IMG/VR virus record: IMGVR_UViG_3300014838_000058
Span: 1 to 30,031 of that record
Length of the DNA stretch: 30,031 nt
Direction: 5' to 3' (one strand)
DNA from: a virus
In this document: positions 3,869-15,701 of the stretch, piece after piece
Numbering within the stretch: the stretch's first letter is position 1
Layout of the letters: every line of letters begins with the position of its first letter
Translations under genes and position numbers: made by a program
Notes under the pieces: generated by a model
The model's database searches: none
Seen by the model: only the letters and a program-made list of their open reading frames with translations
Told to the model about the DNA's origin: nothing

Positions 3869-5788
3869 ATGCCGCTGCCCGGCTGGATCCCCCCCGCGTT
3901 CCGGCGCAGCGGCGACGTCGCGGAGAAGAAGGCCCGCGCCGCAGCTCTGGCGGACCCGGACGGCCCGCGGCGCGCCCTCCCTGCCCGGACCGGCTTCGTG
4001 CCCGGCATCCCCGCCGGCGGGATAGACGAGCACATCCAGTCCATGGGCGCGTCGACCGGCAGCGACCGGAAGACGCTGCTCGAAGAGCTTTACGACTGCT
4101 ACATCGCGGTCCCCGCCGCGTGGGTAGCCGTGCAGGTCATCGCCCGGACCATCACCGCCGGGGGCCTGTACACCGACTGGGACGCTGACACCGGGGAAGG
4201 CGACGAGGCTCCGGACAAGCCGCCCGAGGTCATCGCCCTGGAGCGGTTCTACGCGTTCTGTAACGACACGCAGGACATCCGGCAGATCATGCGGAACGCG
4301 ATCGCCGCGCTGATCGTGTTCGGCGACGCCTTGCTCGAGGTGGGCTGGGACGGTCCGACGCCGGTCGGCTTGTGGAATCTGGACGTGCCCACGACGTACC
4401 CGCGCGCCGATCAGCACGGCGTGATCACGGGCTGGGTGCAGCAGACCGACCTCGGCCAGACCGCGGACTTCGAGCCCAGGGAAGTAATCCACATCTCGAT
4501 GGACTCGGCCCGGCCGGGGATCAACGGGGTAGGCCCGGTTCAGGCGATGCTGAACCCGATGGCGGCGTGGCTGTACGCCGCCGCCACGGAGAAGGAGATG
4601 CTCCGCAAGGGGCTGCCCCCGCTGGTCCACGTCGACCTCGCGGCCGGGACGAGCCCCGATGAGGTGACCCGCTGGGACAACCGGTACCGGGCCCGGAACA
4701 TCGGCACCAAGAACATCGGCGCCCCGCTGATCTCCACGGGCGGCGGGAAAGTTACCGAGCTCCAGGCGGGCAAGCTCGCCGACGTGCTGGCAGCGAAGGC
4801 CGCAGCCCGGGACGAGATCCTCGCCGGATGCGGCGTACCGCCGGCTGAGGGCGGCGTGATCGAGTCCGGGAACCTCGGCGGCGGCACCGGAGATGCGCAA
4901 CACAGAAGTTTTATGCTAAACACCTGCGATCCGGTAGCCGGGCTGCTGCTGGAGAAGCTCAACTTCCACATCGCCGTGCAGGGTTTCGGGGTAAAGGGCT
5001 GGCGCAGCAAGTTCAAGGAAGTCGACTACCGGGACTCCATGGTGGTCGAGCAGATCAGGGACACCCGGCTCAGGAACGGCACGTGGACCCGGAACCGGAC
5101 CGCGGCCGACATCGGGGAGCCCCCGGTGGCCGGCGGGGACAAGGCGGTCCTGGTCGACCGGCAGAACCTGGTCCTGTGGGAGGACATCGACGCGATGTCC
5201 AAGGCTACGGTGGCGTCCAAGAGCCCGACGCCTGGTGCACTTCCCGGTCAGTTCTCGCCCGTCCCGCAGCAGGGCGGACCGCAGCAGCAGGGCGCCGAGT
5301 CGGTCGCAGGCCAGCGGGCAGCAGTCCGCGAGGCCCTGCGCGCCTATCACGCCGCCGGCCGGGCGCTGTACGAGGACGCGGCGAGCGGCGTCTATGCCCA
5401 GATGAGCAAGGCTTTCCCGCCTGCGGCTATCGCGTGGGTCAAGGACAAAGCCGCTTGGCAGGGACCGCAGATGGTGCCCCTGGATCAGGTCGACATGGCC
5501 GACAAGGACCAGTGGGACGCCAGCCGCCCGCAGGATGCGGGCAAGGTGGCCAGGATCGGCCGGAAGATGCGCCGCGCCCTGAAGAACGGCAAGCAGCCGA
5601 CGCCCGCGGTCATGGTCCGCTGGCCCGGCTCGGGCAAGGACGTGATCGTGGACGGCCACCATCATGTCCTCGCGGCCGAGCAGGCTGGCCAGCACTTCGT
5701 GTGGGCCTACGTCGGGCACGTCCCGCAGGAACAAGGCGACTGGCTGACCACGGCAAGCCGCGAGATCCGCGCCAAGAAGGCAGCATGA
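3869..5788 (+). CDS. Portal protein with C-terminal ParB-like domain
   Basis: A 639-aa protein; ATG 3869 follows GGGAGGT. Residues ~45-450 match a phage portal: helical DNA-vertex ring protein with LEELYDCYIAVPAAWVAVQ, a FGDALLEVGW strand, NLDVPTTYPR, GPVQAMLNPMAAWLYAA and a LPPLVHVDLAAG core. The portal is the dodecameric gate for DNA packaging and the platform for head-tail joining. After a Gln/Pro-rich linker (~455-490), residues 534-616 resemble a ParB/sulfiredoxin-type domain: MVPLDQVDM, RIGRKMRRALKNGK, and IVDGHHHVLAAEQAG with DGHHH at 595-599. This extra domain adds ~150 residues beyond a usual portal. The stop overlaps the next start (ATGA at 5785-5788). Confidence 0.88.
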   Translation: MPLPGWIPPAFRRSGDVAEKKARAAALADPDGPRRALPARTGFVPGIPAGGIDEHIQSMGASTGSDRKTLLEELYDCYIAVPAAWVAVQVIARTITAGGLYTDWDADTGEGDEAPDKPPEVIALERFYAFCNDTQDIRQIMRNAIAALIVFGDALLEVGWDGPTPVGLWNLDVPTTYPRADQHGVITGWVQQTDLGQTADFEPREVIHISMDSARPGINGVGPVQAMLNPMAAWLYAAATEKEMLRKGLPPLVHVDLAAGTSPDEVTRWDNRYRARNIGTKNIGAPLISTGGGKVTELQAGKLADVLAAKAAARDEILAGCGVPPAEGGVIESGNLGGGTGDAQHRSFMLNTCDPVAGLLLEKLNFHIAVQGFGVKGWRSKFKEVDYRDSMVVEQIRDTRLRNGTWTRNRTAADIGEPPVAGGDKAVLVDRQNLVLWEDIDAMSKATVASKSPTPGALPGQFSPVPQQGGPQQQGAESVAGQRAAVREALRAYHAAGRALYEDAASGVYAQMSKAFPPAAIAWVKDKAAWQGPQMVPLDQVDMADKDQWDASRPQDAGKVARIGRKMRRALKNGKQPTPAVMVRWPGSGKDVIVDGHHHVLAAEQAGQHFVWAYVGHVPQEQGDWLTTASREIRAKKAA

Positions 5789-5916
5789 GCGAGCCGCCGC
5801 CCGAAGAGCCGTATCAGATCGAGGGCACGGAGCCGGCCTGGGAGCCATCGACGCTGCCGGGCCGGCCGCTGACGGCGGCGGGAGCCGCGCCGTTCGTTCC
5901 CAAAATCATCAGCTAA
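5785..5916 (+). CDS. 43-aa microprotein mimicking the major capsid N-terminus
   Basis: The ATG at 5785 overlaps the portal stop (ATGA), implying translational coupling, and TAA ends it at 5914-5916. The N-terminal half is acidic and proline-rich (MSEPPPEEPYQIEG). The C-terminal half contains PLTAAGAAPFVPKIIS, which aligns without gaps to residues 7-22 of the major capsid protein, ALTAAGASPFVPKLID: 12 of 16 identical. Codons differ at many positions, so the match is kept at protein level and is not a fresh DNA copy. Binding to a partner that also reads the capsid N-arm (scaffold, protease or portal) is my inference. It is too short for domain calls. Confidence 0.7.
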   Translation: MSEPPPEEPYQIEGTEPAWEPSTLPGRPLTAAGAAPFVPKIIS

Positions 5917-5925
5917 GGAGCGCGC

Positions 5926-6471
5926 TTGACCTGCATCGCCGGCCTTGTCCATGACGGGGCGGTCTATCTCGCGGGCGACTCTGCGGGCTGCTCAGGATGG
6001 AACCTGATCGTCCGCACGGACCCGAAGGTCTTCGCTAACGGCTCCTACGTGATGGGGTTCACGACCAGCTTCCGCATGGGCCAGCTCCTGCGCTACGCCT
6101 TCACCCCGCCAGAGCCCGACACGGCGGACCTGCACAGGTTCATGTGCACCGCGTTCACCGACGCGCTGCGCCAGTGCCTGAAAGACGGCGGCTGGGCACA
6201 GAAGGACAAGGAGCAGGAAGAGGGCGGCACGTTCCTGGTGGGGACGCACGGGCACCTGTTCATCGTCAACAACGACTACCAGGTAGCGGAGCCGGCCGAC
6301 TCATATGCGGCGGTCGGCTGCGGCGGCCGGTATGCTCTCGGCGCGCTCCACGCCACCGAGGGCAGCAAGATGGCCCCGCAGCGGCGCCTCGACGCGGCAC
6401 TCGCGGCAGCCGAGCGGTTCTCCAGCGGGGTACGCGGCCCGTTCGCTCACGTCGGCACGGCTTCGGCATGA
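5926..6471 (+). CDS. Proteasome-beta/HslV-like Ntn hydrolase
   Basis: A 181-aa protein starting at TTG 5926, with AAGGAG at 5915-5920 overlapping the previous stop. After Met removal the chain starts with Thr1. Asp17 (LAGDS) and Lys33 (TDPKVF) fall at the exact catalytic positions of proteasome beta subunits and HslV. Further family marks are VMGFTTSFRMGQLL, GTFLVGTHGHLFIV and a SYAAVGCGGRYALGALHA stretch, which matches the usual AxGSGxxxAxGAL segment. It is probably a self-compartmentalising threonine peptidase or amidohydrolase. No ATPase partner such as HslU is visible here. Its place between portal and MuF-like genes suggests use in head assembly, but the substrate is unknown. Confidence 0.8.
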   Translation: MTCIAGLVHDGAVYLAGDSAGCSGWNLIVRTDPKVFANGSYVMGFTTSFRMGQLLRYAFTPPEPDTADLHRFMCTAFTDALRQCLKDGGWAQKDKEQEEGGTFLVGTHGHLFIVNNDYQVAEPADSYAAVGCGGRYALGALHATEGSKMAPQRRLDAALAAAERFSSGVRGPFAHVGTASA

Positions 6472-12116: not shown

Positions 12117-12319
12117 CGGGGCTCCGTCAGGTAGCGCTCGATCTCATCAAGGCTGATGCCCGCCTTCGGGCTCTTGACGCGATCTGTCTTGGCGTCACTC
12201 AGCCAGTAGAGACCGTAGTCGGCTGCCAGCGGGTCGCGCCTCGCAGAGCGTCTTAGCTTCAGCCCCTGCCGTGCCGCCATCCTGCGCAGGCGGTTCTCTC
12301 TCGCCTTGTCATCGGTCAT
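12113..12319 (-). CDS. 68-aa basic conserved hypothetical protein
   Basis: The protein starts MTDDKARENRLRRMAARQG, continues KLRRSARRDPLAADYGLYWL and ends LDEIERYLTEPR. This small basic N-terminus followed by a YGxYxLxDAxT core is widespread in actinobacterial genomes as a hypothetical protein, often beside mobile genes; its function is unknown. I chose ATG 12319 over the longer frame from 12394, as TACGCT lies 6 bases before it. The stop overlaps the GTG of the zinc-finger/GIY-YIG gene. It may be an accessory DNA-binding partner, which is inference. Confidence 0.72.
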   Translation of the reverse strand: MTDDKARENRLRRMAARQGLKLRRSARRDPLAADYGLYWLSDAKTDRVKSPKAGISLDEIERYLTEPR

Positions 12320-12325
12320 GCCCCA

Positions 12326-12331
12326 AGCGTA
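12326..12331 (-). promoter_or_regulatory. -10 box for leaderless 68-aa gene
   Basis: TACGCT on the minus strand (TANNNT), then TGGGGC, then ATG 12319. The promoter region lies in the 56 bases between this start and the plus-strand GTG 12376, so it overlaps the ribosome site region of the protease gene. Confidence 0.45.
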
Positions 12332-12375
12332 CCGGAAACGATGCCCGAAGTGACGCAGGAACACTAGGAGGTGTC

Positions 12376-14199
12376 GTGGCAAAGGCCATTGCAACCATTA
12401 GCGGCATCGGCCTCGTTCCCGGCGTCTCGAAGAACCGGCGCCTGTACACCCCGGAGATGGTCGAGCGGGCTACGAACCGGCTCGCCGAGCGCATCAAGAC
12501 CGGGAACGCTCCCGCGAACATGCTGTCGCATCACGCCGCCGGGGACGACAGCCGGGAGATCACGGCCACCCTGACCGGGGCCCGCCTGGACGAGGGGCGC
12601 CTGCGGTTCGACGGCGCCATCACCGCCACCAAGGCCGGCGAGGACATCGCGAACCTCGCCGACATCTCGGACGGCAAGCCCGCGCACCTGAAGAACGTGT
12701 CGATCCGGGGCTACTGGCTCGGCACCGTCCGCAAGGTCAAGGGGCCGGACGGGCAGCCCGTCGAGACCGCTGACGACATGGAGATCGACGGGATCGACTG
12801 GACGAAGAGCCCCGGCGTGACCGGTGCCGAAATCGACACGTTCGCATGGGCGGACCGGTCGGGCCGCACGGAGACCACTGAGCGCATCTTCATCACCGAG
12901 AGCGTCCAGGAGGCGCGCGTGACCATCAGCGAAGAGACGGCACCCGCAGCACCCCTGGTGCTGACTGAGGCCGAACGGACCATGCTCCCGTTCGCAGGCG
13001 CCCCGCACGTCCTGGAGAACGGCGCGTGCTCCACCTGTGCCGCAGTGGCCGAGGGCGGCGATGCTCCCGGCGACGGGTCAAAGCCATTCGGCAACGTCGT
13101 CTACGCCGACCCGGGCTACCAGGCGGACAAGCAGAAACGCTATCCCGTCGACACAAAGGCCCACGTCAAGGCGGCGCTTTCGTACCTGGCGCAGAAGTCC
13201 AACGCGGCGAAGTACACCGCCGCACAGCTCAAGCGGGTCATGGGACGCATCCGCGCGGCGGCGAAGAAGTTCGGCATCACCACGGCGGCCGAGTCCGCGG
13301 GCTGGTCGTTCGACGCCCCCGTCCAGCTGACCGAAGCTCTCGCCGAACATCTCGGTGACACGTCCCGCGCGGGCTCGTGGAGCGTCCGCGCATCCAACGG
13401 CCCCGTGGACATCTGCCTGTCGTCCTGGGGCATGGACCCCGAAGACCTCGACGTGATCCTCCGCGCCGCCGCTGACGCGGCCTGCAAGGCCCTGGCCGCC
13501 CTCGACCCGGACATGGACGGCGACGTCGATGTCCCCGGTGTCGGTGACGGCTCAGACCCCGATAACGACGCCCCCGGCGAATCCGCGCCGGACGGTGACG
13601 GAATGACCGACCCAGACCCGGCAGCCGCCCCGGCAGCCGCTACAACGGAAACGGAGGACCCCGCCATGACTGCGGAGACCACCACCCCGGCGGCAGGAAG
13701 CACGCCGGCTGTCGACCCTAAGACCCTCGCCGAAGCGGTCGCGACTGCTCTGGCCGAGCAGGAGACCGCGAGGCAGGCCCGCAAGGCCGCGAAGCGGGAG
13801 AAGGCGGCAAAGGCCGCAACCGAGGCCGCCCGTATCGCCACCGAGTCCGCCGCCCTCGGGCAGGGCGCGCCGGCCACTACGGGCGCTTCCGCCACCGAGA
13901 CCGAGGACCAGCGGCGCGCGAGGCTCGCCGCTCTCGTGGAGGCGCAGTTCGCCGCCAAGGCGCAGGCCGAGGGCCTCGCCACCGAGAAGACCGACGAGCA
14001 GCTCGTCGCCGAGATGATCGAGGAGCGAATGGTCCCGCTGCGCCAGGGTCGCGCCGAGGCCGGTGGCGTCCAGCGCAAGGGCCTCGCCCCCCTGGAGGCG
14101 ATCGCCGACTCGCCCACCGCCGGGAAGCTCCTGGAGAACGCGACGAACGAGGACCTGTCCCACACGGCCGCCGCGGCGTACGGCCCGCGCAGGCGCTGA
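12376..14199 (+). CDS. Prohead protease - DUF6582-like - scaffold fusion
   Basis: A 607-aa protein from GTG 12376 with AGGAGG at 12366-12371. Residues 1-~190 look like a head maturation protease: ATISGIGLVPGVSKNRRLY, MLSHHAAGDD with His52/His53, LKNVSIRGYW with Ser109, and IDWTKSPGVTGAEIDTFA. His and Ser are candidate catalytic residues. Residues ~235-305 match a DUF6582-like segment (VVYADPGYQADKQKRYPVD, HVKAALSYL, AAKKFGI). The remaining part is acidic and then Ala/Lys/Glu-rich coiled coil (~445-500), which suits an internal scaffold removed after assembly. A fused protease-scaffold of this type would cut itself and free the major capsid protein. The catalytic pair is inferred. Confidence 0.78.
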   Translation: MAKAIATISGIGLVPGVSKNRRLYTPEMVERATNRLAERIKTGNAPANMLSHHAAGDDSREITATLTGARLDEGRLRFDGAITATKAGEDIANLADISDGKPAHLKNVSIRGYWLGTVRKVKGPDGQPVETADDMEIDGIDWTKSPGVTGAEIDTFAWADRSGRTETTERIFITESVQEARVTISEETAPAAPLVLTEAERTMLPFAGAPHVLENGACSTCAAVAEGGDAPGDGSKPFGNVVYADPGYQADKQKRYPVDTKAHVKAALSYLAQKSNAAKYTAAQLKRVMGRIRAAAKKFGITTAAESAGWSFDAPVQLTEALAEHLGDTSRAGSWSVRASNGPVDICLSSWGMDPEDLDVILRAAADAACKALAALDPDMDGDVDVPGVGDGSDPDNDAPGESAPDGDGMTDPDPAAAPAAATTETEDPAMTAETTTPAAGSTPAVDPKTLAEAVATALAEQETARQARKAAKREKAAKAATEAARIATESAALGQGAPATTGASATETEDQRRARLAALVEAQFAAKAQAEGLATEKTDEQLVAEMIEERMVPLRQGRAEAGGVQRKGLAPLEAIADSPTAGKLLENATNEDLSHTAAAAYGPRRR

Positions 14200-14333: not shown

Positions 14334-15701
14334 ATGTCCGAAATCCGAGAGGCGCTGACCGCGGCTGGTGCCAGCCCGTTCGTGCCCAAGCTCATCGATC
14401 CGACCCTGGTGGAGTACCAGCGGCGTTTCGCGCCGTGGTGCCGCGCCATCCCGACCAAGAAGACCAACAGCACCACGTACTTCTTCAACACCCGCACCGT
14501 GGTCGTATCCGGCGGCGCGGTGCCGGACGGCGGCGCGCGGCCGGTGTCCACCAGCACCTACACCCAGGGTCAGTTCACCATGACCCACATTCAGGCCGTG
14601 GGCAGCGTGACGGGCTACGCGCAGGCCGTCACCACCGACCTCATCGACCTGCGGGCCACTGAAGTCAACGGCGCCATCAAGGGCTACTACTGGGACGTCG
14701 AGACGTTCTGCGGCTGGGGCAACTCCGCCTCCACCGCGAACGGCGCGCAGCCCCAGTTCGACGGCCTGGACACCCAGATCAGCCAGTTCTCCGCCGGCGG
14801 CTCCCAGAACGTCATCGACTACGCCGGGAAGTCCCTCACCCTGTCCACCCTGGACGAGCTGATGGTCATGGTGGCCGGCAACGCGGCCGAGCCGGTGCAG
14901 GGCGCCAGCTGGATGTACGTCATGAGCGTGTCAGCTGAGGCCCGGATCGCGCAGCTTCTCCAGGCCCAGCAGCGGTTCGACAACGTGGAGATCGCGGCGG
15001 GCCTGATCGTCGCGACGTACAAGCGGGTCCCGCTGGTCCCGTCCAGCTTCCTGTCGACGCTGGGCGGCTACTCGGTCGGCACCGTCACCGCGGCCACGGC
15101 CACCACGGGCGGCACCCTGGCGGCGGCGACCTACTACTACAAGGTGTCCGCGGTCATCGCCCGGCAGGGCGAGATCCTCCCCTCGCTGGAGGTGTCGCAG
15201 GCCACCACCGGGTCCACGTCCACGGTCACCCTCAGCTTCACCGCGCCGACCGGGCAGGACGGCCTCGGCACCCAGCTGTACAAGGTGTGGCGGGGTACCG
15301 CGGCCGGCGGGGAGACGCTCCTCGGCTACGTCGACAGCACCGTCGGGCTGCAGTCCGACGGGGTGACCCCGGTCTACGCCAACCAGATCGTCGACACCGG
15401 GACCGCGCTGGTGCCGCAGCAGTCCAGCGGTCCCGTCGTGCCCGGCATCCTGCCGGTCGTGTACTACGGCACCAACGCGTCGATGCTGCCTCCGGGTGCC
15501 GGGCAGGAGAACATCTACCTGATGTCCCGCGACCCCGGCAACATCGTGCGGCCGTTCGTGCGCGAGGCACATCCCCTGGATGTGTACCCGACGACCGCCA
15601 GCCCGGACAGCATGCCGTTCGCCATTATGGGTGATATGTGTTTGGCGGTTCGCACGCCGAAATTCGCCGGCCGCGCTTACCGGGTCGCTGTCGCTTCGTA
15701 A
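14334..15701 (+). CDS. Major capsid protein with FN3/Ig-like insertion
   Basis: A 455-aa protein; ATG 14334 has GAGGAG 8 bases upstream. It follows the protease-scaffold gene, the normal place for the HK97-fold shell protein. N-terminus: TAAGASPFVPKLIDPTLVEYQRRF, then FTMTHIQAVGSVTGYAQAVTTDLIDL and DELMVMVAGNAAEPV, fitting HK97-fold spine helix and A-domain elements. Residues ~247-356 read as an inserted fibronectin III/Ig-like domain (TYYYKVSAVIARQGEI, STVTLSFTAPTG, LYKVWRGTAAGGETLLGYVD), which in virions tends to project from the shell. The HK97 fold resumes with YYGTNASML and VREAHPLDVYPT. The N-terminal 7-22 segment is copied by the 43-aa gene at 5785. Confidence 0.88.
   Translation: MSEIREALTAAGASPFVPKLIDPTLVEYQRRFAPWCRAIPTKKTNSTTYFFNTRTVVVSGGAVPDGGARPVSTSTYTQGQFTMTHIQAVGSVTGYAQAVTTDLIDLRATEVNGAIKGYYWDVETFCGWGNSASTANGAQPQFDGLDTQISQFSAGGSQNVIDYAGKSLTLSTLDELMVMVAGNAAEPVQGASWMYVMSVSAEARIAQLLQAQQRFDNVEIAAGLIVATYKRVPLVPSSFLSTLGGYSVGTVTAATATTGGTLAAATYYYKVSAVIARQGEILPSLEVSQATTGSTSTVTLSFTAPTGQDGLGTQLYKVWRGTAAGGETLLGYVDSTVGLQSDGVTPVYANQIVDTGTALVPQQSSGPVVPGILPVVYYGTNASMLPPGAGQENIYLMSRDPGNIVRPFVREAHPLDVYPTTASPDSMPFAIMGDMCLAVRTPKFAGRAYRVAVAS

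Follow-up and report, generated by a model that had tools for sequence, protein, structure and literature searches.

Why would a phage encode, directly behind its portal gene, a protein of 43 amino acids whose C-terminal tail repeats the N-terminal arm (N-arm) of its own major capsid protein (MCP)? This question is raised by a stretch of viral DNA of 30,031 nucleotides, analysed here at its whole length and referred to as the window. The features that bear on it are the following.

3869..5788, + strand: portal protein, directly upstream of the microprotein, with a 4-nt overlap (Pfam Phage_portal, E 4e-19; PHROG portal)
5773..5779, + strand: Shine-Dalgarno-like purine run AAGAAGG, ~5 nt 5' of the microprotein ATG (from the sequence)
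5785..5916, + strand: arm-mimic microprotein gene, 43 aa (ATGA overlap with the portal stop; conserved family; dN/dS 0.21 in its close group)
5869..5913, + strand: arm-mimic tail LTAAGAAPFVPKIIS, microprotein residues 29-43, the sole part conserved family-wide
12271..14199, + strand: protease-like, DUF6582 and scaffold-like parts fused in one open reading frame (ORF) between microprotein and MCP (DUF6582, E 1e-17; synteny)
14334..15701, + strand: MCP, HK97 fold (phrog_752, E 2e-35; AlphaFold2 pLDDT 81; PDB match 9vel)
14355..14399, + strand: MCP N-arm segment LTAAGASPFVPKLID, residues 8-22, copied by the microprotein (residues 3-5 and 15-20 at pLDDT <50)

The microprotein tail and the capsid N-arm in the window

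The ORF at 5785-5916 encodes MSEPPPEEPYQIEGTEPAWEPSTLPGRPLTAAGAAPFVPKIIS. A first-pass annotation of this DNA had described the 43-aa gene as coupled to the portal stop, and indeed the ATG of the microprotein overlaps the portal TGA as ATGA. Comparison with the MCP, whose likely start is at 14334 rather than at the longest-ORF start (14247), also bore out the copy of the capsid N-arm that had been proposed, with 12 of 16 residues identical between microprotein residues 28-43 and MCP residues 7-22; the gap between microprotein and capsid gene, previously given as ~8.5 kb, is 8.4 kb. The further statement that codons differ between the two segments is true of 5 of the 12 shared residues, while the same codon is used at the remaining 7 and 35 of 48 nucleotides match. 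Differing codons were therefore set aside as a weak sign of convergence. The longest exact string common to tail and arm DNA in the window is 10 nt, and therefore the likeness is not the product of a recent DNA duplication. The local score of tail against arm is 63; none of 20,000 shuffles scored above 55 (Gumbel p ~1e-5), and the next best arm score among the C-termini of all forward-strand ORFs in the window is 40. Chance likeness is ruled out by recurrence of the tail across 57 loci in which portal, microprotein and MCP are all present.

We modelled the MCP with AlphaFold2 from 84 sequences (pLDDT 81); with 15 sequences the pLDDT was a poor 43. The closest solved folds are SPO1-like MCPs (PDB 9vel and phi812 5lii), the SPO1 capsid 9vel being the best match, and the region 245-365 reads as an inserted beta domain. 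Residues 3-5 and 15-20 are below pLDDT 50, shortly before a helix that starts at residue 23, and the copied arm segment holds the least confident part of the model, residues 15-20.

The window microprotein had no match in Pfam, PHROGs or NCBIfam. Protease and scaffold assignments within the ORF at 12271-14199 are putative and were made from sequence features; neither part had a profile-library match. Directly 3' of the microprotein lies a gene for an HslV-like peptidase (5926-6471; phrog_1040, E 1e-24), which we place outside the conserved unit because among the other microprotein loci it was found only in L001, whose sequence is identical to the window. The C-terminus of the window portal (3869-5788) contains a ParB-like segment, VDGHHHVLAAEQAG, which was recognised by eye and is unusual in a portal.

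Occurrence, shape and selection of the microprotein family

Relatives were gathered via portal and via MCP among both viral contigs and genomes of bacteria (Streptomyces, Kitasatospora, Catenulispora, Peterkaempfera, Streptantibioticus and others), and every ORF C-terminus was scored with a profile built by iteration from the last 16 residues of the microprotein. Profile scores were sharply bimodal: 67 hits scored at least 18, a single locus (L126) scored 9.6 and was later confirmed by four related genomes, and the others scored near or below 0. Three entries from the microprotein scan (L040, L041 and L043) were rejected as MCP arms. Carriers are phages whose hosts are soil actinobacteria and Streptomyces relatives; when the MCP and the microprotein were compared with INPHARED phages by tblastn, no relative was returned.

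We found that the order is portal, microprotein, MCP in 57 of 57 loci holding all three, window included, although some of these loci are mutual duplicates, so that there are somewhat fewer distinct genomes. Across these loci the microprotein lies 2.5-8.9 kb from the MCP, and its end is a median of 157 nt past the end of the portal match. Searches of whole records placed it beyond the first 10 kb, further upstream, in L060, L062, L078 and L094, and L132 is the sole case in which portal and MCP are present with no microprotein. All four unseen Streptomycetaceae genomes fetched by MCP alone carry the microprotein, which is the top profile match in each at lower scores of ~14. Absence from relatives, or unlikeness to the capsid there, had been named as evidence against the original proposal; our data indicate that the gene is near-universal within a family whose MCPs reach down to 46% identity with the window MCP, and that it is arm-like throughout. 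Coupling to the portal, claimed for the window, is more restricted. The microprotein start overlaps the portal stop itself in the window, L002, L003, L030, L031, L037, L088 and L117, while another gene is directly upstream in many genomes, including L004, L063 and L076.

Microproteins range from 21 to ~54 aa when read from likely start codons. Their constant tail is roughly PLxAxDVxxLIxKxIG-stop; the N-terminal part varies and is rich in proline. In Streptomyces short forms, such as MEHGHPTRAQDVLPLIAKRIG, the N-terminal part is nearly gone and the 21 aa are almost only mimic; members as short as this show that the N-terminal half can be lost and the mimic cannot. Most members stop exactly at the end of the mimic, but the C-terminus is extended past it in L003, L012 and L062, and therefore a free C-terminus is not essential. 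In profile-profile comparison the microprotein family aligns to MCP residues 5-21 (E 5e-5, probability 68%), and its profile had no match among PDB sequences.

Cysteine-rich segments accompany the microprotein at a few loci. In L012 (2-298) it continues after the mimic into a Cys-rich zinc-ribbon-like domain, and in L076 (6114-6848) the end of a similar Cys-rich ORF overlaps the microprotein start; this fusion and the adjoining ORF may, as fused genes can, hint at a partner. In L086/L120 (6009-6173) a CxxC zinc-finger-like segment (WRCGVCGRECAVPSLARACEAAH) stands in frame before the microprotein.

The microprotein is under purifying selection, with dN/dS ~0.2: the values in three separate groups are 0.21 (the close group of the window), 0.20 and 0.18. 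In most members the start is an ATGA or GTGA across the upstream stop, and many have GGAGG-like or purine-rich leaders resembling Shine-Dalgarno sequences. Selection, coupled starts and leaders together suggest that the microprotein is translated.

Co-variation of the tail and the MCP arm

The first-pass annotation had asked whether changes in the two segments go hand in hand. When MCP bodies, from which the arm was removed, were placed on a maximum-likelihood tree, the core F/L position changed four times in each protein. This co-change exceeded that in simulations in which the microprotein state evolved on the MCP tree independently of the MCP (p 0.001), and Pagel's model gave LR 15.5 (p 0.004). 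Three of four independent F/L pairs are concordant and none is opposite, which is too few for significance. With four more genomes the p values are 0.001 for F/L, 0.004-0.005 for the residue before Lys, 0.024 for V/I, 0.06 for the last hydrophobic position and 0.16 for the first core position, all for positions picked after the alignment was seen and uncorrected for the number of tests. Pro before Lys occurs in the microprotein in 0 of 12 cases where the MCP arm has no Pro, versus 17 of 39. Tail and arm match in pairs such as FLPK/FLPK (L122), FIQK/FIQK (L076), LVQK/LVQK (L105) and ALVSK/ALVSK (L176), and the sister pair L021/L061 provides a local example of co-change.

Other comparisons gave no such signal. 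A partial Mantel test controlled for MCP body distance gave r 0.01 (p 0.40), a microprotein matched its own MCP arm no better than the nearest different arm (21 vs 19), and a microprotein F is paired with an MCP L in three sampled lineages. Thus the tree tests support the proposal at three of five core positions, while the partial Mantel result leaves strict residue-by-residue co-change unsupported; tail and arm co-change at some positions, not strictly. In one MCP clade (L086, L089, L101, L113, L124 and relatives) the arm Lys has become Thr (PTIVD) and the microproteins keep Lys, and at this site the two copies may be under separate constraints.

A putative role in head assembly

Our preferred explanation, in which we have moderate confidence, is that the microprotein is a small factor in head assembly, with 15-16 residues at its C-terminus that mimic the flexible N-arm of the phage's own MCP and act at the site of that arm. 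This is supported because the microprotein always lies between portal and MCP, is under selection, is arm-like and partly co-varies with the arm. Against it stand the locus without the gene (L132), the Mantel result, the uncorrelated first core position and SPO1, where none of the small-ORF C-termini in the 40 kb tested resembles the MCP arm. We infer both the binding to the arm's site and the role in assembly. The microprotein would bind in trans where the MCP N-arm binds, either in the groove of a neighbouring MCP or on a scaffold or protease protein that contacts the arm in the procapsid; in other words, it would engage the arm's partner during head assembly. It would act as an adaptor or a competitor by occupying this site in certain places or at certain times, and its N-terminal part, which is variable and rich in proline, would provide a tether, a spacer or a means of tuning.

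Studies of other phages indicate what such a site might be. In procapsids of 80alpha the N-arm helix has the bound tail of scaffold at its side (PMC5644958); in both 80alpha and SaPI1 procapsids the N-arm is inside, and the tail of scaffold or CpmB lies beside its helix (PMC5644958, PMC10541612). In D3, the N-arm is thought to occupy a P-domain site vacated by scaffold (PMC12749128). By analogy, an arm copy supplied in trans could compete at a site shared by N-arm and scaffold. Somewhat more tentatively, we suggest a conserved class of arm-mimic microproteins, in which copies of a phage's own N-arm, encoded in trans, would occupy arm sites or compete for them at one particular place or moment, such as at the portal vertex.

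Two narrower readings are finer cuts of the preferred explanation, and the likelihoods that we give them overlap with its own. The first, a minority possibility, is that the microprotein is made with the portal as an adaptor and either fills the empty N-arm sites of the surrounding capsomers or links the portal to a scaffold that recognises the arm. Placement at the vertex is favoured because the microprotein always follows the portal gene on its 3' side, closely and in some loci across the portal's own stop. A fixed link to the portal is disfavoured because the directly upstream genes vary and because the N-terminal part, which would presumably hold the portal, is itself variable and dispensable. 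The second, which we regard as unlikely, is that a soluble peptide sits on the partner site of the arm as a brake or chaperone. In the manner of a minimal scaffold tail, it would hold back shell assembly that is premature or aberrant, or would set the curvature of the shell. The 16-residue C-terminal effector is the size of the 80alpha scaffold/CpmB tail found beside the N-arm (PMC5644958), and it co-varies with the MCP arm; however, it is unlike the scaffold C-terminus, and a profile search of all ORFs found microprotein and MCP arm to be the only clear carriers.

Alternatively, the tail could be a ligand of the prohead protease, whose main substrate is usually scaffold, and imitate either what this enzyme cuts at the MCP arm or what it leaves there after cutting (MCP ..PKIID-P, peptide ..PKIIG-COOH). 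Most members ending exactly with the mimic, and a protease-like protein encoded between microprotein and MCP, fit this reading, which we nevertheless consider improbable because extended C-termini exist and the scaffold part showed no motif resembling the arm. That the gene is a copy of the MCP gene's 5' end without function, or that the likeness arose by chance, is very improbable: the shared sequence might come from an old duplication, but the gene is near-universal and old, has kept its reading frame and coupled start at dN/dS ~0.2, and shares so short an exact DNA string with the arm.

The microprotein under the preferred explanation resembles several known systems in part. As with the RIIK tail shared by 80alpha scaffold and SaPI1 CpmB, a motif that also occurs in a different protein of head assembly makes up its last ~16 residues (PMC5644958). 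That tail binds the capsid protein beside the N-arm, and CpmB, a size-redirection factor that alters capsid size, is satellite-encoded, has a dimer domain and copies scaffold (PMC5644958). Unlike CpmB, the microprotein belongs to the phage's own head module, from portal to MCP, has no dimer domain and copies the MCP arm, with no match to scaffold in the search of all ORFs. It is also like encapsulin cargo-loading peptides in being a short C-terminal peptide related to an HK97-fold shell; in encapsulins the N-terminal helix of the shell forms part of the pocket (PMC8346489), and the peptides bind the inner face of the shell. Unlike these, it resembles the shell protein's own arm and carries no enzyme cargo, most members being 21-54 aa without a recognisable enzyme domain; L012 alone, with its long Cys-rich extension, departs from this short form. 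Scaffolding proteins are long, mostly helical and abundant internal proteins, and by length the microprotein is not one; a separate protease/scaffold-like gene is present. The capsid-targeting sequences of T4 internal proteins, which direct small proteins into the prohead, are short, N-terminal and cleaved, while the peptide of the microprotein is C-terminal.

In the open-access literature (subscription papers were outside the search) we found no description of a phage with a separate gene for a copy of its own capsid arm. Short motifs common to capsid-assembly proteins are a known principle, as in CpmB and scaffold (PMC5644958). We rate the microprotein as a new kind of component with a putative function because it has no profile-library or PDB match and no literature description, and because it differs from CpmB in origin and in the protein copied.

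If the suggested class of arm mimics is real, these phages would have a so far undescribed way to handle symmetry mismatch or to control shell assembly. The microprotein touches two open questions, namely how a twelve-fold portal sits in a five-fold vertex and how the flexible N-arm is restrained until the shell matures, and an arm copy of 21-54 residues would be a small, easily synthesised handle on both. Our data also suggest that near-universal structural genes can escape annotation because they are tiny.
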